A stretch of 64,000 nt of DNA, from positions 248,001 through 312,000 of the forward strand of contig NZ_PDEQ01000006.1 in assembly GCF_002554795.1 (NCBI RefSeq). Direction: 5' to 3'. The position numbers were made by a program, and so were the translations under genes. Origin of the DNA: Longibacter salinarum (GTDB lineage: Bacteria > Bacteroidota > Rhodothermia > Rhodothermales > Salinibacteraceae). Under the pieces are notes generated by a model, which had not been told where the DNA came from, did no database searches, and saw only the letters and a program-made list of their open reading frames with translations. This document shows positions 35,897 to 45,632 of this stretch, piece after piece (the stretch's first letter is position 1; the number at the start of each line of letters is the position of its first letter).

Positions 35897-36715
35897 TTAC
35901 GCCGGTTCAGCTTCCGTTCCATATTTTAGCTTGCGAGCGAATGAGCGAACGGAGGCAAGCCGTTCTTCATCAGACAAGGACGGGGCGTCCCACAGGTCTG
36001 CACAGTGGTTGATCAGCGCCGATCCGACGATAAAGCCGTCCGTGTGCTGCGAAAGCTCCATGGCATCCTCATGCGTCTTAATACCGAAGCCAACGAGGAG
36101 AGCGTTGTCTGTGACGAGGTTACGGGCACGGTGCAGGTACGCGTCGACGTCGCCGGACAGGGAGCTTCCGGTGAGCCCGGTCACGCTAACGGCGTAGACG
36201 AAGCCGCTGGCGAGTTTGTCGATACGCTGAATCCGTTCGTCGCTCGTGTTTGGCGCGATAAGGAAGACGATATCCAGGTCGTGCCTCTGCGCCGCGTCCG
36301 TGATAAACCGGGCTTCTTCCGGGGGGACATCCGGAAGGATCACGCCGTCAACCCCGGCTTCGCTCGCCCGCTCGCAGAACCGCTCCGCTCCGTACTTCAA
36401 GACCGGGTTGACGTATCCCATGAGCAGCAGCGGGGTGTCACTCTCTTCGCGAAAGGCGGCCGCCGTTTCGAACGCGTCGTCCATGGTGACGCCGTGTGAC
36501 AGGGCGCGCTCACTCGAGCGTTGAATGGGGAGACCTTCGGCGAGAGGGTCGCTGAACGGCATTCCGAGTTCGACAAAGTCGACGCCCGCTTCGTCAATGG
36601 CTCGAAGGATCGGAAGCGTCGCATCCGGGTTGGGGAATCCGTTCGTCAGGAACAGTCCCATCGCCTTTTCCCCGCGATCACGGAGGTCAGCAAATGTTTT
36701 ATCGAGTCGGGACAT
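35897..36715 (-). CDS. trpA: Tryptophan synthase alpha chain
   Basis: A 272-residue TIM-barrel subunit that cleaves indole-3-glycerol phosphate and passes indole to TrpB. The signature [19 protein letters not shown] contains catalytic Glu49, but position 60, normally Asp in the LADG motif, is Glu. Other conserved segments are [41 protein letters not shown] (loop 6) and [13 protein letters not shown]. It is the last trp gene, 110 bases after trpB. Confidence 0.95.
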
Positions 36716-36825: not shown

Positions 36826-38121
36826 TTACCGGTGCTTGGCGATGGTTTCCATGTCTTTGTCGCCACGACCGGAGCAGTTGAACACGATGACAGCATCTTC
36901 ACCGAGTTGGTCGGCGAGCGTCGGTAGCAAGTGGACAGCATGCGCCGTCTCAAGTGCCGGAATGATGCCTTCCGTTTGCGAGAGAAGTTCGACGCCGTGA
37001 AGTGCTTCCTCGTCCGTGACGGGGTGGTACTGTGCGCGGTCGAGGTCGCGGAGGTGGGCGTGCTCTGGCCCGATGCCCGGGTAGTCGAGTCCGGCCGACA
37101 CACTGTGCGCGATTTCGACCTGTCCGGAGTGATCCTGGAGCATGACACTCATCGCTCCATGCAAAACGCCTGGCGTGCCCTTGGCGAGCGTTGCGGCGTG
37201 ACGTCCGTTGAGTCCCTCACCAGCGGCCTCTGCGCCGTGGAGCTGTACGTCTTTATCGTTGATAAATGGATACCAGATGCCGATCGCATTGGAACCGCCA
37301 CCAACGCAGGCGACGATTGCATCCGGCGTCTCACGCCCCTCTTTTTCCAGAAGCTGGGCGCGGGTCTCATTCCCGATCACGCGATGGAAGTCGCGAACCA
37401 TCATCGGATACGGATGAGGGCCCACGACGGAGCCGATGATGTAGAACGTGTCGATCGGATTCGAGACCCAGTCTCGAATCGCCTCGTTCGTAGCATCTTT
37501 GAGCGTCTGGCTTCCGCTGGTGGCGGGGCGGACTTCCGCTCCGAGGAGCTCCATTCGTTCCACGTTCAGCCGCTGTCGCTCAATGTCCTCCGACCCCATG
37601 TAGACGATGCAGTCCAGACCGAATTTGGCGCAGACCGTCGCCGTCGCAACACCGTGCTGGCCAGCTCCCGTCTCGGCAATGATACGCGTCTTGCCCATGC
37701 GCTGGGCGAGAAGGATTTGCCCGATCGTGTTGTTGATCTTGTGGGCACCGGTGTGGCACAGGTCTTCTCGCTTGGCGTAAATCTTGGCTCCGCCGAGTTC
37801 GGTCGTCAGCCGGTCGCAGAACGAGAGCGGCGTCGGTCGGCCTACGTACTCCCGGAGGAGATCGCGGTATTGCTTATCGAATTCAGGATCGACCCGGGCT
37901 TCCGCATAGGCAGATTTTAGTTCCTCCAGAACCGGATACAGGATTTCCGGGACGAAGGCGCCGCCGTACGTGCCAAAATGGCCGGTGGCGTCCGGGGCGT
38001 CGTAGCGTTCGGTGGATGCGATGTTCGGATTGTTCGTCATGGAGGGGGCAGGTGCGCCGTCGCCCGTTGCCGAAGAGTCTGCGGACCGAGAAGACGCCGA
38101 AGCGTCAGAAGAGGTAGGCAT
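36826..38121 (-). CDS. trpB: Tryptophan synthase beta chain
   Basis: A 431-residue PLP enzyme that joins indole to serine. [13 protein letters not shown] opens the conserved part; [13 protein letters not shown] carries the PLP lysine. [36 protein letters not shown] (phosphate loop) and the end [16 protein letters not shown] are all present. The first 45 residues are a Ser/Ala/Asp-rich extension, perhaps a halophilic trait, or the true start may be ATG 38040. Classic TrpB1 type, matching the adjacent trpA. Confidence 0.97.
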
Positions 38122-38213: not shown

Positions 38214-38894
38214 CTATGACGCCATATCGGTTTCCGACGGATTGCTTTCGTCGCTCATTTTTTTGTTGACGCGTCGAAACGTTTCGAGGAAGGCATCGAC
38301 TTTTTCAAAGCTCTTCTGGCCGGGAGCACTTTCGACGCCGCTGGATAGATCGATAGCGTACGGACGCATCGTCTTGACGGCTCGCTCGACATTGCTGTCG
38401 TCTATGCCACCTGCTAGGAAAAGGGAGTATTCGTTTGATAAATCGCGTGCAAGGCGCCAGTTAAAAGACTCGCCCGTTCCTCCCCACACGCTCGAGTTGT
38501 GCGTGTCGAGCAGGAAGTGGTCGACGAGATCCTCGTAGCGCTCCATGATCGCTCGAAGCTGATCCGATGACGCGTCGTGACGGACGCGAATCGCTTTGAT
38601 GATCGGTCGCTCGATCGCCTTACAGGTTTCTGGCGACTCCTCTCCATGGAGTTGCACGTAGTCGAACCCGGCGGTGTCGGCGATAGCGTTGACCTCGTCG
38701 GCACTCTTGTTAACGAACACGCCGACCGATTCCGGGCCGTAGAGCCACTCGAGCATATCGCTCACGAGCGATGGGACGACGTACCGCGGGCTGTCTTCGT
38801 GTTGGACGAAGCCGAGGTAGTCGACTCCCTCACCGGCGAGGTAGCGGGCGTCGGCGAGGTCGGTGATGCCGCAGATTTTGAGCTTGGTGCGCAT
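38214..38894 (-). CDS. trpF: Phosphoribosylanthranilate isomerase
   Basis: A 226-residue beta/alpha barrel that converts phosphoribosylanthranilate to CdRP. Conserved motifs: [25 protein letters not shown] (active Cys), [60 protein letters not shown], and [16 protein letters not shown]. It sits between trpC and trpB with short spacers. The final 20 residues are a polar tail beyond the usual length. Confidence 0.95.
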
Positions 38895-38945: not shown

Positions 38946-39755
38946 TCAGGCCTGCTGCATGGCGATCTCTTTGGCCTCGTTGCGGAGGTCGTCGAGCGCT
39001 TGTCCCGGATCTTCTGCGCGCATGAAGTGCTCGCCGATCAGAACACCGTTCACGCCGTTCTGCCGAAGTCGAACGAGTGTTGCCGGATCGCTCAAACCGC
39101 TCTCCGAAACGCGACCAACGTTGCGAGGGACGTGCTCAAAGATTCGGAGCGAGTTGTCTACATCGACTTCGAACGTGTTCAGGTCGCGGTTATTGACGCC
39201 GAGGATCGAGACCTGGTCGAAATCGATCTTATCCAGGTCGTCGAGCGCGTAGACCTCAACGAGGCAGTCGAGTCCGAGGTCGGTGGCTGCTTGATGCAGG
39301 TGGCGAAGCTGGCGGGCGTCGAGAGCCGTTGCAATGAGAAGGACCGCATCCGCGCCGACCGCACGAGCTTCGACTAATTGATACGGGTCGATGATGAAGT
39401 CCTTCCTCATCAGCGGGACATCTTCGACGTGCGCTCGGATCCAGGCAAGGTTCTGAAGTGAGCCCTGGAAGTGATTCGGCTCCGTCAGGACGCTGATCGC
39501 GTTGGCGCCATGCTTCACGTACGACTGCGCGATCTGTGCCGGCCTAAACGGCTCCCGGATGACTCCTTTCGACGGCGACGCTTTTTTTACTTCGCAAATG
39601 AACGACATCCCTCGCGATTTCAGTGCTTCGACGAGGGAGAGCGGCTCCCGGTCGGTGTAGAACGGCCGTTGCTCCAGTTCCTGTACCGGCGTCTCCTTCT
39701 TCCGCGTCGCGACAAGCTCACGGGTGTCGTCAATGATCTGGTCGAGAATACTCAT
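38946..39755 (-). CDS. trpC: Indole-3-glycerol phosphate synthase
   Basis: A 269-residue barrel enzyme that closes the indole ring. The motifs FICEVKKASPSKGVI (catalytic Glu and Lys), ISVLTEPNHFQGSL, LMRKDFIIDPYQLVEARAVGADAVLLI, LGVNNRDLNTFEVD, and VSESGLSDPATL are all present. Monofunctional, not fused to TrpF, whose gene is next. The 87-base spacer from trpD contains no hairpin with a U-tract. Confidence 0.96.
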   Translation of the reverse strand: MSILDQIIDDTRELVATRKKETPVQELEQRPFYTDREPLSLVEALKSRGMSFICEVKKASPSKGVIREPFRPAQIAQSYVKHGANAISVLTEPNHFQGSLQNLAWIRAHVEDVPLMRKDFIIDPYQLVEARAVGADAVLLIATALDARQLRHLHQAATDLGLDCLVEVYALDDLDKIDFDQVSILGVNNRDLNTFEVDVDNSLRIFEHVPRNVGRVSESGLSDPATLVRLRQNGVNGVLIGEHFMRAEDPGQALDDLRNEAKEIAMQQA

Positions 39756-39842: not shown

Positions 39843-40877
39843 TCAGCCTTTCGGGGCATCTTGGGAGACTTCGATCAGGCGATCGAGCGTCCGGCTAGCG
39901 TTGCCGCTGTCGATGCTGTCGTTGGCGGCCTCGATGCACGCGTCGATGTCCTCAAATTTGCCGCTTGTTTGGAGCGCGTAGGCGGCGTTCAGAACGGCGA
40001 CATGTCGGCGGGGACCCTTGTCATCGCCGGACAGAATGTTGCGGAGAATAGCCGCGTTGTCGGCAGCGGTGCCGCCGGCCAGTGCGGAGATCGGCGCCCG
40101 ATTGATTTCATGCTGTTCTGGCCCAACTTCGCGGCTCCGCGGGACGCCGTCGCCATGTACGTTGTCGTACTCAAACACCGTCGTAGAGGCTGACACCGAC
40201 ACCTCGTCGAGCCCATCCTGCGCGTGGAGGGTTACGACGTGCTCCGCATCGAGGTGCGACAGGATGCGCACCATCATCTGCGCGGTCTTCGTGTTGAAGG
40301 CGCCGACGAGCTGACGTTTGACCCCGGCCGGATTGCAGAGCGGCCCGAGAATGTTGAAGAACGTTCGCACGCCGAGCGACTTGCGAACGGGCATGACGTG
40401 ACGCATTGCCGGGTGAAAGTAGGGCGCGAATAGAAAGGCAATGCCGACTTCGTCCAGGCAATGTTCCACGCCGGCCTTCTGGAGTTCGATCTCTACGCCC
40501 AGGTGTTCGAGAACATCCGCGGAGCCGGATTTTGAGGATACGGAGCGGTTGCCGTGCTTGGCCACGGTCGCGCCGGCGCCGGCAGCGATGATTGCGGCCG
40601 TTGTCGAAATATTAAAGGTGGAAGCGCCGTCACCGCCCGTGCCGCAGAGGTCAATCGTGTGAGGGTCGTCAACATCTACGGAAATGGCGAACTCGCGCAT
40701 CACTTTCGTGAAGCCAACGAGCTCGTCGAGCTGTTCTCCGCGGGCGCGGAGTCCCATGAGGAGAGCAGCCACGTGCTCGGGCAAAGCGTCACCCGTCATC
40801 ATGATGCGCATGGCAGACTCAGCCTGCTCGCGCGTGAGTGGGTGTCCGTCGGCAATCGCGTTCAGATACTCCTTCAT
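39843..40877 (-). CDS. trpD: Anthranilate phosphoribosyltransferase
   Basis: A 344-residue enzyme that transfers phosphoribose from PRPP to anthranilate. Signatures: DLCGTGGDGASTFNISTTAA (PRPP loop), AKHGNRSVSSKSGSADVLEHLG, FLFAPYFHPAMRHV, GVRTFFNILGPLCNPA and HAQDGLDEVSVSAST. Monofunctional; the glutaminase TrpG is encoded separately just upstream. Usual length. Confidence 0.97.
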   Translation of the reverse strand: MKEYLNAIADGHPLTREQAESAMRIMMTGDALPEHVAALLMGLRARGEQLDELVGFTKVMREFAISVDVDDPHTIDLCGTGGDGASTFNISTTAAIIAAGAGATVAKHGNRSVSSKSGSADVLEHLGVEIELQKAGVEHCLDEVGIAFLFAPYFHPAMRHVMPVRKSLGVRTFFNILGPLCNPAGVKRQLVGAFNTKTAQMMVRILSHLDAEHVVTLHAQDGLDEVSVSASTTVFEYDNVHGDGVPRSREVGPEQHEINRAPISALAGGTAADNAAILRNILSGDDKGPRRHVAVLNAAYALQTSGKFEDIDACIEAANDSIDSGNASRTLDRLIEVSQDAPKG

Positions 40878-40943: not shown

Positions 40944-41543
40944 TCAGGATGATCGTGCAGGATCGAGGTCGATGGAGCCAATGGACCGGAGCCAGTTCGC
41001 GATGATGCGCGGACCGGCCTTCGTGAGGACGCTCTCTGGATGAAACTGAATGCTTTCGATCGGATGGTCTCGGTGGCGCAGGCCCATCACGGTGCCGTCG
41101 TCGGTCTCGGCGGTGATTTCGAGCACGTCCGGGATGGATTCGCGGTCAACGACGAGCGAATGGTATCGTGTCGCCTCGAAATTCTGCTCGACACCGTCGA
41201 AGACCGAGTGGCCGTCGTGGGTCACCGTGCTTGTTTTGCCGTGCATCAGTTCTCGAGCGTGCGTAATTGACCCGCCAAACACTTCGCCAATCGCTTGATG
41301 GCCGAGGCACACGCCGAAAATCGGAATGTCTGCGCCGAGGTGCTCGATGATGCCCTCCGTAATGCCCGCCTCGCGCGGCCGTCCAGGTCCCGGAGAAATC
41401 AGAATGCCGTCGGGAGCCATGTCGCGAACCTCCTCGAGCGTCCGGTCATCATTGCGAATGACCTCCAGGTCGTCGGTATGCCGCCCCACCAGGTGCACCA
41501 GGTTGTACGTAAAGCTGTCGTAGTTATCGATGATGAGGATCAT
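40944..41543 (-). CDS. trpG: Anthranilate synthase glutamine amidotransferase subunit
   Basis: A 199-residue class I glutaminase. It supplies ammonia to TrpE. It begins MILIIDNYDSFTYNLVHLVG, carries the nucleophile Cys in GVCLGHQAIGEVFGG, the oxyanion SPGPGRP, and the His-Glu pair in SIQFHPESVL. An open frame extends 36 codons upstream into the low-complexity (ACACTTC) tract and is not coding. Because pabBC elsewhere in the window has no glutaminase partner, this may serve both synthases, as TrpG/PabA does in some bacteria (inference). Confidence 0.96.
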   Translation of the reverse strand: MILIIDNYDSFTYNLVHLVGRHTDDLEVIRNDDRTLEEVRDMAPDGILISPGPGRPREAGITEGIIEHLGADIPIFGVCLGHQAIGEVFGGSITHARELMHGKTSTVTHDGHSVFDGVEQNFEATRYHSLVVDRESIPDVLEITAETDDGTVMGLRHRDHPIESIQFHPESVLTKAGPRIIANWLRSIGSIDLDPARSS

Positions 41544-41565
41544 TGGGGCAACCCGTTTGGAGGTT

Positions 41566-41615
41566 CGGAAGTGTGGAAGGGTGGAAGTGTCGAAGTGTGA
41601 ATGTGTGAAAGTGGG
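41566..41615. repeat. Low-complexity GAAGTGTG-type repeat tract
   Basis: Degenerate copies of GAAGTGTG / GGAAGTGT are tandemly arranged between trpG and the four-helix-bundle gene. A shorter related sequence in the opposite sense (TTCACACGTCCATACCTTC) lies on the other side of that gene near 42088. Confidence 0.6.
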
Positions 41616-41620
41616 GGAGG

Positions 41621-42004
41621 TTACTTGTCGTCGTTTTGGGTATGGCACCATTTGTCGGCGTTTACCTTCATTTTGACCAGGCCGCCGATGATCGAACGAT
41701 ATCGTGATTCGAAATTATCGACTTCGTTTGAGACGTATCCATGCTCAGCGGCCAGATCGAGCCAGACGATCGTTTCCGATGCTTCGCTGAGCGCGTCTGA
41801 CAGTTTGCTCGAAAAGTGTTTGGGATAGTCTCGTTTGAACCATGCTTCGCCAATGTTGGCGCACACCGACCGTGATGCTCTCCGAATTTGGTCGGTCATG
41901 GAGTACCGCTCGCTCGGAGGCCAGTCGGTCGAAAGTCTAAAAATCTCACTTGCGCAAGCGAATGCCTGCTCGTAAACACGAAGGTCTTTAAAATCCCTCA
42001 CCAT
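41621..42004 (-). CDS. Four-helix-bundle protein (S23 / bAvd-like family)
   Basis: A 127-residue helical protein with the family's hallmark: MVRDFKDLRVYEQAFACASEIFRLS, then ERYSMTDQIRRASRSVCANIGEAW and a C-terminal helix ending in VNADKW. Relatives are encoded in 23S rRNA intervening sequences of spirochaetes and as accessory proteins of diversity-generating retroelements, but most are of unknown function. It interrupts the trp operon between trpS and trpG, is AT-richer than its neighbours, and is bordered by repeat tracts and a palindrome, which suggests a recently inserted islet. Confidence 0.88.
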   Translation of the reverse strand: MVRDFKDLRVYEQAFACASEIFRLSTDWPPSERYSMTDQIRRASRSVCANIGEAWFKRDYPKHFSSKLSDALSEASETIVWLDLAAEHGYVSNEVDNFESRYRSIIGGLVKMKVNADKWCHTQNDDK

Positions 42005-42104: not shown

Positions 42105-43154
42105 TCAAACGTGGGGCGCTAGCCCCACAGCTTCGCGGGCCTTCTCCATAACCGGTGCGACTCGGGCTCGGGCTCGGTCGGCGCCTTGCTGGAGGACGTC
42201 GTGCACGTAGTCCGGGCGGGACGCGAGGTCCTTGCGTCGGGCGCGGGCCTCGGCGAAGTTCTCGGTGATGAGCTGCAGGAGTTCTTTCTTGGCGTGGCCG
42301 TAGCCGTAGCCGCCTGCGCGGTATTTTGCAGCGATCTCCGCCTGCGTCTCGTCGTCGGCGAAGAGCTTGATCAGCGCGAACACGTTGCAGCTCTCTGGAT
42401 CCTTCGGCTCATCGAGCGGCGTGGAGTCGGTCACGATGCTCATGACCTTTTTCTTCAGCTCCTTGCCTTCGTCGAAAATGCCGATCGTGTTGCCGTAGCT
42501 CTTCGACATCTTCTGCCCATCGATACCGGGTACGACGGCGACGTCGTCGAGGATGTACGGCTCGGGAATGGGGAAGAGTGGGTCATCCGGCGTGTAGGTC
42601 TGATTGAACCACCGAGCGCAGTCGCGCGCGATCTCGAGGTTTTGCTTCTGGTCGGCGCCGACCGGGACGCGTGTGCCAAGGTAAGCCAAAATGTCGGCTG
42701 CCTGGAGCACGGGGTAGGTAAACAAGCCGGCGTTCGGTGTGAGACCGGCGTTGACCTTTTCCTTGTATGAGACGCCTTTTTCGAGCCGACTCGTCGGGAT
42801 CAGGTTGAGCAGCATCCACATCAGCTCCGTCACTTCCGGCACGTCGCTCTGGCAGAAAAGTGCAGATTCGTCCGGGTCGAAGCCTAGAGCGAGGTAGTCG
42901 AGGGCTACGTCCAGCGTATGCTGCCGCAGCGTATCCGCGTCCTGCACGGTCGTCATCGCGTGGTAGTTCACGATGAAGTAGAACGACTCGTGCTCCGTGT
43001 GCAGGTCGATGTGCTGGCGGAGAGCCCCGAAATAATTGCCGAAGTGAAGTCGGCCGGAGGGCTGGATGCCGGACACGACGACGGTGTCGAAGTCCTTCTC
43101 GGGGGCGTCGTCCTCGTGGGATGCGGCGTCGGTGGTGGGCGCGTCGGTAGGCAT
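42105..43154 (-). CDS. trpS: Tryptophanyl-tRNA synthetase
   Basis: A 349-residue class I synthetase that charges tRNA-Trp. The HIGH-equivalent is GIQPSGRLHFGNYFGALRQ; VPVGADQKQNLEIARD and the KMSKS loop GQKMSKSYGNTIGIF follow. The C-terminal anticodon-binding part is complete. About 25 acidic residues precede the conserved start. Its place inside the trp operon, downstream of a Trp-codon attenuator, would link charging capacity to tryptophan supply. Confidence 0.96.
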   Translation of the reverse strand: MPTDAPTTDAASHEDDAPEKDFDTVVVSGIQPSGRLHFGNYFGALRQHIDLHTEHESFYFIVNYHAMTTVQDADTLRQHTLDVALDYLALGFDPDESALFCQSDVPEVTELMWMLLNLIPTSRLEKGVSYKEKVNAGLTPNAGLFTYPVLQAADILAYLGTRVPVGADQKQNLEIARDCARWFNQTYTPDDPLFPIPEPYILDDVAVVPGIDGQKMSKSYGNTIGIFDEGKELKKKVMSIVTDSTPLDEPKDPESCNVFALIKLFADDETQAEIAAKYRAGGYGYGHAKKELLQLITENFAEARARRKDLASRPDYVHDVLQQGADRARARVAPVMEKAREAVGLAPHV

Positions 43155-43221: not shown

Positions 43222-43701
43222 TTAGCGGCGGGTGAGCTGGCTCTTCATTTTCTCTAGCCCTTTCAACCGATCGTGACTGTTTGACGCGACGAGTTCGAGA
43301 ATGGCACGGGTACGCATCTGGTGCTCGATGTCCTCGCGCTCCGTCTCGACCGTCGTTTTGAAATCGCGCTCTTGCTCGATGAGCGAGTTGACGATCTCAA
43401 GGCCGTCGTTCCCAAGGTCGTATTGATCCGGCTCAAGGTCGGTACCGTTGTAGGCAGCACCACCCGCACTGAAGATGGTCTCTGACAGCTTGCCCACGTC
43501 CATCCGTGATGTCCGCTGCATCTCACGAAGTGCTTCGACCATGTCTTGACGGCCGAGCGAACGGATGGCGGCCTCGTAGTTGTGGTTGAGTACGATATGC
43601 TCCTTGACAATGGGGTTGAGACGCTCAACGGTTTCCGCACGCGTGATCGTGCGACCCGCCCAGCCTCTGCCAAGAAGCAGTTCTTTCAGTTTGTTCGGCA
43701 T
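43222..43701 (-). CDS. Unknown helical protein in the trp operon
   Basis: A 159-residue, almost entirely helical, soluble protein that I cannot place in a named family. Notable stretches are VKEHIVLNHNYEAAIRSLGR, MVEALREMQRTSRMDVGKLSETIF and LIEQERDFKTTVETEREDIEHQMRTRAILELV. The Glu/His spacing is vaguely ferritin-like, but no clear di-iron ligand set is visible. It lies between trpE and trpS on the same strand, 67 bases before trpS, so it should be made under the same attenuator. No signal peptide or membrane helix. Confidence 0.7.
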   Translation of the reverse strand: MPNKLKELLLGRGWAGRTITRAETVERLNPIVKEHIVLNHNYEAAIRSLGRQDMVEALREMQRTSRMDVGKLSETIFSAGGAAYNGTDLEPDQYDLGNDGLEIVNSLIEQERDFKTTVETEREDIEHQMRTRAILELVASNSHDRLKGLEKMKSQLTRR

Positions 43702-43889: not shown

Positions 43890-45395
43890 CTAGAGCAACC
43901 CATCGGATGCTACGCGCATGGCCTCGCGCAGTGCAGCGGCCTTGTTGCGCGTCTCTTCGTACTCGGCCGTTGGGTCGCTGTCGGCGACAATGCCTGCACC
44001 GGCCTGCACATAGATGGAGTCGTCTCGGACGACCATCGTGCGGATCGCGATACACGTGTCGAGGGTCCCGTTGAAGTCGATGTAGCCGACCGCTCCGGCA
44101 TAGACGCCCCGGCGGCTGGGTTCAAGTTCGTCGATGATCTCCATCGCTCGGACTTTCGGTGCACCGCTCACCGTGCCGGCCGGGAAGCAGGCCGCGAGCA
44201 CATCGAGTGGACCCTCGTCGTCGGATACGGTGCCGGCGACGGATGAGACGATGTGCATCACGTGCGAGTACCGCTCGATGAACGCGTACCGTTCCACCTC
44301 GACCGAGTCGTACGAGCATACGCGTCCGAGGTCGTTGCGGCCGAGATCGACAAGCATCAGGTGTTCGGCGCGCTCCTTCGGGTCGGCGAGAAGTTCGTCG
44401 GCCAGGTCGGCGTCCTCTTGTTCATCCGCGCCTCGCGGCCGGGTGCCGGCAATCGGGAGTACCTCTGCGCGGTTGTCTTCGACGCGAACGAGGACCTCAG
44501 GAGACGAGCCGACGAGAGCGATGTCGTCGAAGTCGAGGTAGAAGAGGTAGGGGGAAGGGTTGACCTGCCGGAGGGCACGGTACAGATTGAAGCGGTCGCC
44601 GTCGAATGCCATTTCGAACCGCTGCGACAGAACGACCTGGAAGATGTCGCCATCGTACACGTACTGCTGTGCGGTGCGGACGGCATCCTCGAACGCGTCC
44701 TGGTCAAAGTTCGATGTCATGCCGTCGCCCGTGAGTCGCACGGGTGCACCGCTCATCGGGGGCTGCACGAGATCGGCCTCGAGCCGTCGGAGTCGACGTT
44801 GAGCTTCCTGGTAGGCCGCATCTGGGTCCGTGTCCGGATCGACGAACGCGTGGGCGATCATAACCACCTGATGTCGCACGTGGTCGAAGGCGGTCACCGT
44901 ATCGTAGAACGCCCAGATCGCATCCGGCACGTCCAGGTCGTCGGGCGGGGCATCTGGAAGATCCTCGATCAGGCGAACGGTGTCGTACCCCATGTAGCCC
45001 ACGGCCCCTCCAGTGAGTCGGGGGAGGCCGGGTACATCGACCTCGTCGTACCGATCCATCAAATCGGCCATGACGTTGAAAATGTCCCCTGTCGGCTCGT
45101 CTCGCAGCGCTTCGCCGGGGACGCGGCGGGTGTTGATCGAAACCGTCGCGCCGTCATCCTGGGCCTGGATGATGCGGTAGGGATTGCGACCGATGAACGA
45201 ATAGCGCGCGAGCTTTTCACCACCTTCAACGCTTTCCAGAAGAAAGCAAAAGGGCGCATCCTGCCGGAGGGACAGGAACGCGGACACCGGCGTGAGCAAA
45301 TCTGCAGACCGGCGAACGGGAACGGGTACGACGACGTGGTCGGAACCGTCGGCGCGCGCAGCCTGAACGATGGAAACAAACTCCTCTTGCGTCAT
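43890..45395 (-). CDS. trpE: Anthranilate synthase component I
   Basis: A 501-residue chorismate-using enzyme. The N-terminal allosteric motif for tryptophan feedback is recognisable (FCFLLESVEGGEKLARYSFIG, the LLES element). The catalytic part has IFQVVLSQRFE, LVGSSPEVLVRVE, the PIAGTRPRG motif typical of TrpE, LMLVDLGRNDLGRV, FPAGTVSGAPKVRAMEIIDELE and the end GAGIVADSDPTAEYEET. ATG 45395 (MTQEEFVSIVQ) is the homologous start; ATG 45440 would overlap the attenuator terminator. A complete attenuation leader precedes it. Confidence 0.97.
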   Translation of the reverse strand: MTQEEFVSIVQAARADGSDHVVVPVPVRRSADLLTPVSAFLSLRQDAPFCFLLESVEGGEKLARYSFIGRNPYRIIQAQDDGATVSINTRRVPGEALRDEPTGDIFNVMADLMDRYDEVDVPGLPRLTGGAVGYMGYDTVRLIEDLPDAPPDDLDVPDAIWAFYDTVTAFDHVRHQVVMIAHAFVDPDTDPDAAYQEAQRRLRRLEADLVQPPMSGAPVRLTGDGMTSNFDQDAFEDAVRTAQQYVYDGDIFQVVLSQRFEMAFDGDRFNLYRALRQVNPSPYLFYLDFDDIALVGSSPEVLVRVEDNRAEVLPIAGTRPRGADEQEDADLADELLADPKERAEHLMLVDLGRNDLGRVCSYDSVEVERYAFIERYSHVMHIVSSVAGTVSDDEGPLDVLAACFPAGTVSGAPKVRAMEIIDELEPSRRGVYAGAVGYIDFNGTLDTCIAIRTMVVRDDSIYVQAGAGIVADSDPTAEYEETRNKAAALREAMRVASDGLL

Positions 45396-45442: not shown

Positions 45443-45474
45443 AAAAAACCCACTGCCTCGGGGAAGCAGCGGGT
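45443..45474 (-). terminator. Attenuator terminator of the trp operon
   Basis: On the minus strand, a 12-bp stem (45474-45463 with 45459-45448, loop CCC, three wobbles) runs into TTTTTTATTT. It lies between the Trp-rich leader peptide and trpE. Its 5' arm overlaps the antiterminator arm, so the two structures are mutually exclusive. Confidence 0.92.
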
Positions 45475-45543
45475 CAAGGGGCATCCTTCTAAAAGTCGAT
45501 GCTATTCAGACGCGAGGTGGAAGCACGCGCAGCCCTTGACCCG
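45470..45543 (-). promoter_or_regulatory. Antiterminator (2:3) pairing of the trp leader
   Basis: CGGGTCAAGGG inside the leader-peptide reading frame (45543-45533) is the exact reverse complement of CCCTTGACCCG (45480-45470), an 11-bp pairing. The second arm shares ACCCG with the terminator stem. A ribosome stalled at the upstream Trp codons would leave the first arm free to pair, which would prevent termination. An alternative hairpin, CCTGGACT with GGTCAAGG, can sequester the first arm. Confidence 0.88.
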
Positions 45544-45594
45544 GAGTCCAGGCCACCACCAGCGCCACGTCGTGTTGTTGATCGCGTTTGCCAT
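45502..45594 (-). CDS. trpL: trp operon leader peptide
   Basis: A 30-codon reading frame, starting ATG GCA AAC and ending GAA TAG. It encodes MANAINNTTWRWWWPG followed by 14 more residues: four Trp in five positions (10, 12, 13, 14). In a random sequence of this length one Trp would already be uncommon. It is followed by mutually exclusive antiterminator and terminator stems and then by trpE. This is a classical ribosome-mediated attenuator, in which scarce charged tRNA-Trp stalls the ribosome and lets transcription continue. Confidence 0.93.
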   Translation of the reverse strand: MANAINNTTWRWWWPGLRVKGCACFHLASE

Positions 45595-45603
45595 AGCAAC
45601 TTC

Positions 45604-45632
45604 ACTATACACAACCGCACCGTATCCTGCAA
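45604..45632 (-). promoter_or_regulatory. Promoter of the trp operon
   Basis: On the minus strand, TTGCAG (45632-45627), a 17-base spacer and TATAGT (45609-45604). The expected start lies only a few bases before the leader-peptide ATG at 45594, so the leader mRNA would be nearly leaderless. Confidence 0.6.

Follow-up and report, generated by a model that had tools for sequence, protein, structure and literature searches.

Ribosome-mediated attenuation of trp operons is a textbook mechanism, and nothing in the mechanism itself is new here. In Escherichia coli trpL, as at the locus described below, Trp codons lie in a leader peptide, the antiterminator and the terminator share a segment, and trpE lies downstream. 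E. coli also has an attenuator before a synthetase gene, in pheST. In Sinorhizobium meliloti, the trpL leader RNA (rnTrpL) starts at the AUG, and is thus leaderless, and trp is controlled by ribosome-mediated attenuation, as we propose here; the S. meliloti system differs in that it controls trpE(G) only, belongs to a different phylum and has a known role in trans (PMC7298713). The trp attenuators of Corynebacterium and Streptomyces combine UGG runs with alternative hairpins, again as here, and a separate attenuator has been predicted before trpS2 in Streptomyces avermitilis (PMC1262725).

According to a 2010 survey, Proteobacteria and Actinobacteria were the only groups with demonstrated leader-peptide systems, apart from the survey's own case in Firmicutes and the atypical ermC leader (PMC2965389). 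Within the Bacteroidota, a 2021 transcriptome of Flavobacterium psychrophilum gave strong clues of leader-peptide attenuation before amino-acid operons; it differs from the present case in that trp is unnamed in the main text, and only 5.5% of the mapped mRNAs were leaderless (PMC9723704). Rfam describes the same kind of element as Trp_leader (RF00513), but the leader studied here scores 14.4 bits, below the gathering score of 41, and is not matched; a search of the window returned nothing at gathering and only weak, mixed matches at E<=10. Some attenuators in Bacteroidetes may already have been predicted by Lopatovskaya et al. (2010).

By the window we mean the whole stretch of 64,000 nucleotides of Longibacter salinarum DNA that was analysed. 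The original prediction was that a full Trp-codon attenuator lies ahead of trpE, and direct reading of the minus strand confirmed its parts to within one or two bases. A promoter, a 30-codon ORF, an antiterminator and an intrinsic terminator, followed by trpE, are all found on the minus strand of 45443-45632:

45627..45632, minus strand: -35-like element TTGCAG, from the sequence and from a TTG-type hexamer that most of 80 relatives have equally far from the leader ATG
45604..45609, minus strand: -10-like element TATAGT, 9 nt 5' of the leader ATG, from the sequence and the conserved TANNNT spacing
45502..45594, minus strand: Trp leader peptide ORF MANAINNTTWRWWWPGLRVKGCACFHLASE, 30 codons and TAG, without a Shine-Dalgarno sequence, from the sequence and relatives
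45553..45567, minus strand: control codons Trp-Arg-Trp-Trp-Trp, from the sequence, with WWW or similar kept across the class
45537..45555, minus strand: 1:2 stem UGGCCUGG / CCGGGUCA, overlapping the last Trp codon and segment 2, an 8-bp hairpin in the minimum free energy (MFE) fold of the window's leader
45532..45543, minus strand: antiterminator 5' arm (segment 2) CGGGTCAAGGGC, within the leader ORF, from duplex, masking and swap tests
45470..45482, minus strand: antiterminator 3' arm (segment 3) GCCCCTTGACCCG, overlapping the terminator 5' arm, from duplex, masking and swap tests
45447..45475, minus strand: intrinsic terminator hairpin (segments 3:4), 13 pairs including G-U with a loop of 3, from a terminator scan and family conservation
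45443..45448, minus strand: U-tract U6, the predicted premature 3' end, from the sequence and a terminator scan

The -35-like and -10-like elements are separated by a spacer of 17 nt. The leader, which had been predicted as a 30-codon peptide with Trp-Arg-Trp-Trp-Trp, is present as described; it runs from an ATG at 45594-45592 to a TAG at 45504-45502, and TGG occupies codons 10, 12, 13 and 14, that is, four of the five codons 10-14. The last Trp codon starts 12 nt upstream of the start of segment 2, and CGGGTCAAGGGC pairs with GCCCCTTGACCCG over 11-12 bp to form the antiterminator. Two details of the prediction needed correction. The terminator is there, but it was scored as 13 pairs including G-U rather than as 12 bp, and the segment common to antiterminator and terminator is GACCCG rather than ACCCG. 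Downstream of the U6 tract, the trpE ATG lies at 45395-45393. Unlike E. coli trpL, this leader has no Shine-Dalgarno sequence, almost no 5' UTR and a stop codon far past segment 2, and the operon behind it contains trpS.

This arrangement is not due to chance. We scanned both strands of the window for a short ORF with at least three Trp codons within six, followed by a terminator, and this leader was the only match. Across 0.76 Mb, made up of the window and control loci, the same rule produced two spurious matches, both of them one locus fetched twice, which gives a stray-match rate of about one locus per 0.7 Mb. The antiterminator duplex of the window had a z of -5.3 relative to shuffles (p = 0.005, the shuffle floor). 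The MFE of the whole leader was unremarkable (z -1.6), as is expected for a switch.

The leader is also not confined to this genome. We compared 103 trpE upstream regions from the same family, order and class together with two named MAG records, one from Balneolaceae. Among named records, the TrpE sequences nearest to that of the window come from an uncultured Bacteroidetes MAG and a Balneolaceae MAG, in agreement with the Rhodothermota/Bacteroidota lineage suggested from the sequence at the outset. A Trp-run ORF followed by a terminator stands ahead of trpE in 80 of the 103 regions under relaxed rules and in 60 under strict rules, and the leader recurs across most sampled families of the class Rhodothermia. 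The WWW or WxWWW run is kept across the class, and the remaining peptide sequence drifts widely. The motif GCAGTGGG in segment 2 recurs in different reading frames, giving the peptides AVGR and GSGI. Thus, it is the RNA and not the peptide that is conserved at segment 2.

About a fifth of the 103 regions have no recognisable leader. Some of those that the rules scored as lacking one contain two spaced Trp codons or imperfect hairpins, which the rules missed (for instance L131, L183, L187 and L188). Some genera of the family f12 (L125, L133, L146, L148, L153 and L158) have no leader, and an mscS-like gene abuts trpE; the sequences suggest that attenuation has been lost in these members. In the family f13 (L155 and L156), trpE is separated from the rest of the trp genes; no Trp-run leader precedes it, though a terminator is still found upstream. 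No His, Phe, Thr or Leu leaders were found in the family beside hisG, pheA, thrA and leuA, within flanks of at most about 1.5 kb, which is short for thrA.

The antiterminator pairing was better than that of shuffles (p<0.05) in 57 of the 80 leaders and overlapped the 5' arm of the terminator in every case. The W-ORF scan counted all Trp codons of the longest ORF; an extra W near segment 2 was therefore included in L004, L005 and L009, and the wrong antiterminator was chosen there. Within the close family, the antiterminator is paired in 87% of cells and the terminator in 100% (14 family members for the terminator count), but covariation was not above shuffles for either stem because the sequences are too alike. 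As there was too little variation within the close family, we adopted a cross-lineage swap test. Segment 2 pairs with its own segment 3 at -14.7 kcal/mol and with the partner from another lineage at -11.5 kcal/mol (p=8e-11), and none of 20,000 permutations was as good as the own pairing. For the terminator arms, the corresponding values are -18.1 and -12.5 kcal/mol (p=9e-15). At the level of sequence and comparison, the elements, their conservation and their co-variation are documented. Conservation of the Trp codons and of both alternative stems in related leaders had been named beforehand as one of two checks that could refute the prediction, and it was strongly borne out.

We also folded the leaders with the ribosome masked to 11 nt beyond the first base of the A-site codon. 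With the mask at the last Trp codon of the window, the antiterminator is predicted to form, and the hairpin that is left is shorter and stands back from the U-tract. With the mask at the stop codon, the full terminator forms. In the 80 leaders, upstream pairing of the terminator 5' arm, measured just after this arm is transcribed, was 0.70 at the last Trp codon, 0.24 at the stop codon and 0.48 in shuffles (p of order 1e-13). For the window alone, occupancy of the 5' arm at the last Trp codon was 0.46, no higher than that of its shuffles (0.47). Additionally, when the ribosome was placed at the first Trp codon of the window, termination was predicted once the terminator was complete, and this counts against the model.

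Attenuators of this kind usually, though not necessarily, place segment 2 under a ribosome that has reached the stop codon. In the window such a ribosome leaves segment 2 uncovered, because the distance from the last Trp codon to the stop codon is 17 codons; it is shorter in most relatives, often 12-13 codons. Termination in the window must thus depend on either the 1:2 stem or timing, and the 1:2 stem may take over the role of the ribosome. We do not regard coverage of segment 2 from the stop codon as a defining feature of ribosome-mediated trp attenuators.

A generic sigma-70 promoter scan of the window leader gave no match, and we assigned the promoter from the spacing that is conserved in relatives. 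When the distance to the Trp run is the sole basis for choosing the leader ATG, TANNNT ends 6-10 nt 5' of this ATG in 71 of the 80 leaders, and the TTG hexamer mostly ends 30-34 nt 5' of it. Sequences resembling Shine-Dalgarno tetramers are nearly absent ahead of the leader ATG in the same set. In E. coli, the distance from the -10 element to the start site is usually 6-8 nt. With such a distance, the RNA would start at the AUG or within a few bases of it, and the leader mRNA is probably leaderless.

Downstream of the leader, the window contains the following genes:

43890..45395, minus strand: trpE, anthranilate synthase component I
43222..43701, minus strand: gene X, 159 aa, between trpE and trpS, conserved through the order in relatives' loci
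42105..43154, minus strand: trpS, tryptophanyl-tRNA synthetase
41621..42004, minus strand: 23S rRNA-IVP-like four-helix protein (PF05635)
40944..41651, minus strand: trpG
39843..40877, minus strand: trpD
38946..39755, minus strand: trpC
38214..38894, minus strand: trpF
36826..38121, minus strand: trpB
35897..36715, minus strand: trpA

The order trpE-(X)-trpS-trpG-trpD-trpC-trpF-trpB-trpA is found in nearly all wide loci, and trpS lies within the trp operon throughout the class. Gene X belongs to the trp operon but is uncharacterised, with no Pfam or NCBIfam match. The position of the 23S rRNA-IVP-like gene varies by genus (the window, L159, L162, L163 and L210), between trpS and trpG, trpG and trpD, or trpB and trpA. 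In this genome, trpS is the only tryptophanyl-tRNA synthetase gene that was found. Its place inside the attenuated trp operon, as the sole copy found, distinguishes this system from the actinobacterial attenuators, which also belong to a different phylum (PMC1262725). In the literature searched, we found no description of a trp operon under attenuation that contains a genome's sole trpS.

Based on these data, we consider it very probable that the locus controls the trp operon by classical ribosome-mediated attenuation of transcription, as the original prediction had it, and the sequence comparisons support that reading. A Trp-run ORF lies upstream of the trp genes, a terminator lies between this ORF and the first structural gene, and folding and comparison indicate an antiterminator that would exclude the terminator and would be left free by a ribosome at the Trp codons. 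From these elements we infer where transcription starts, that the leader is translated, that ribosomes stall on it, and that read-through occurs and the system responds to Trp. Transcription would start almost at the leader AUG, and a ribosome would begin the 30-codon peptide. If charged tRNA-Trp is low, the ribosome would stall at the Trp codons; when it stalls at the last one, the 5' arm of the 1:2 stem would be covered and segment 2 would be free to pair with segment 3. This pairing would occupy the 5' arm of the terminator, so that RNA polymerase continues into trpE-X-trpS-trpG-D-C-F-B-A. Conversely, if charged tRNA is ample, the ribosome would pass, and either the 1:2 stem would form or the ribosome would cover segment 2. 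The terminator would then fold, and transcription would stop near 45443.

We have weighed other explanations of the same elements. The same strand carries an mscS-like gene whose end lies about 260 nt upstream, and the hairpin could be the terminator of this gene, with the Trp-rich ORF a coincidence. This is highly improbable, as many relatives without an mscS-like gene in the fetched upstream stretch still keep both the leader and the terminator, whereas in the inspected relatives where mscS abuts trpE both are absent; moreover, the Trp run, the promoter spacing and the antiterminator are conserved together. It is equally improbable that tryptophan is sensed by another kind of attenuator, either a T-box that responds to uncharged tRNA or a protein like TRAP, and that the short ORF is incidental. 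Both T-box and TRAP regulation do act on trp genes through terminators, but a translatable run of Trp codons, which neither requires, is the best conserved feature here, and no T-box or other Rfam family matched the window at the gathering score.

A further proposal would add to attenuation in cis, namely that the terminated leader RNA (about 150 nt, with an AUG start) or the peptide also acts in trans. The layout is that of rnTrpL and peTrpL in S. meliloti, where an RNA runs from at or near the AUG to the attenuator terminator (PMC7298713). By analogy such a role is conceivable, but we regard it as unlikely; the wide variation between relatives in the peptide outside the Trp run argues against a conserved peptide function.

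In other families of Bacteroidota, a Trp-run ORF and a terminator were found in 12 of 20 regions. No significant antiterminator in the Rhodothermia geometry was detected in these 20 regions, and we therefore do not claim the full switch there. Trp-run leaders occur in L248, L249 and L252-L261, many of them with a different terminator, CCCTTC...GAAGGG, before trpE. Perhaps these leaders switch in another way.

Three results go beyond the original prediction: the recurrence of the leader across the class, its probable leaderless start, and an operon that carries the only trpS. Judged from the sequences, what is unusual about this attenuator is the apparently leaderless start and the captive trpS. 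If there is no internal promoter, the essential TrpRS would be governed by a switch that reads charged tRNA-Trp. As the only TrpRS gene found lies in the operon, the switch would set both the Trp supply and tRNA charging, the quantity that it reads. We lean slightly towards the view that this is a class-wide, ancestral and leaderless trp attenuator, which controls the only TrpRS together with Trp synthesis, so that one switch would both sense and set tRNA-Trp charging.

The attenuator can be traced across most sampled families of the class, with the same operon behind it, in a group where such control is barely documented. The class would offer a natural experiment in the co-evolution of antiterminator, terminator and leader, in how leaderless translation may feed an attenuator, and in how an essential tRNA synthetase may be placed under a switch that reads its own product. 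Annotation pipelines would also gain a family that the Trp_leader model of Rfam misses.
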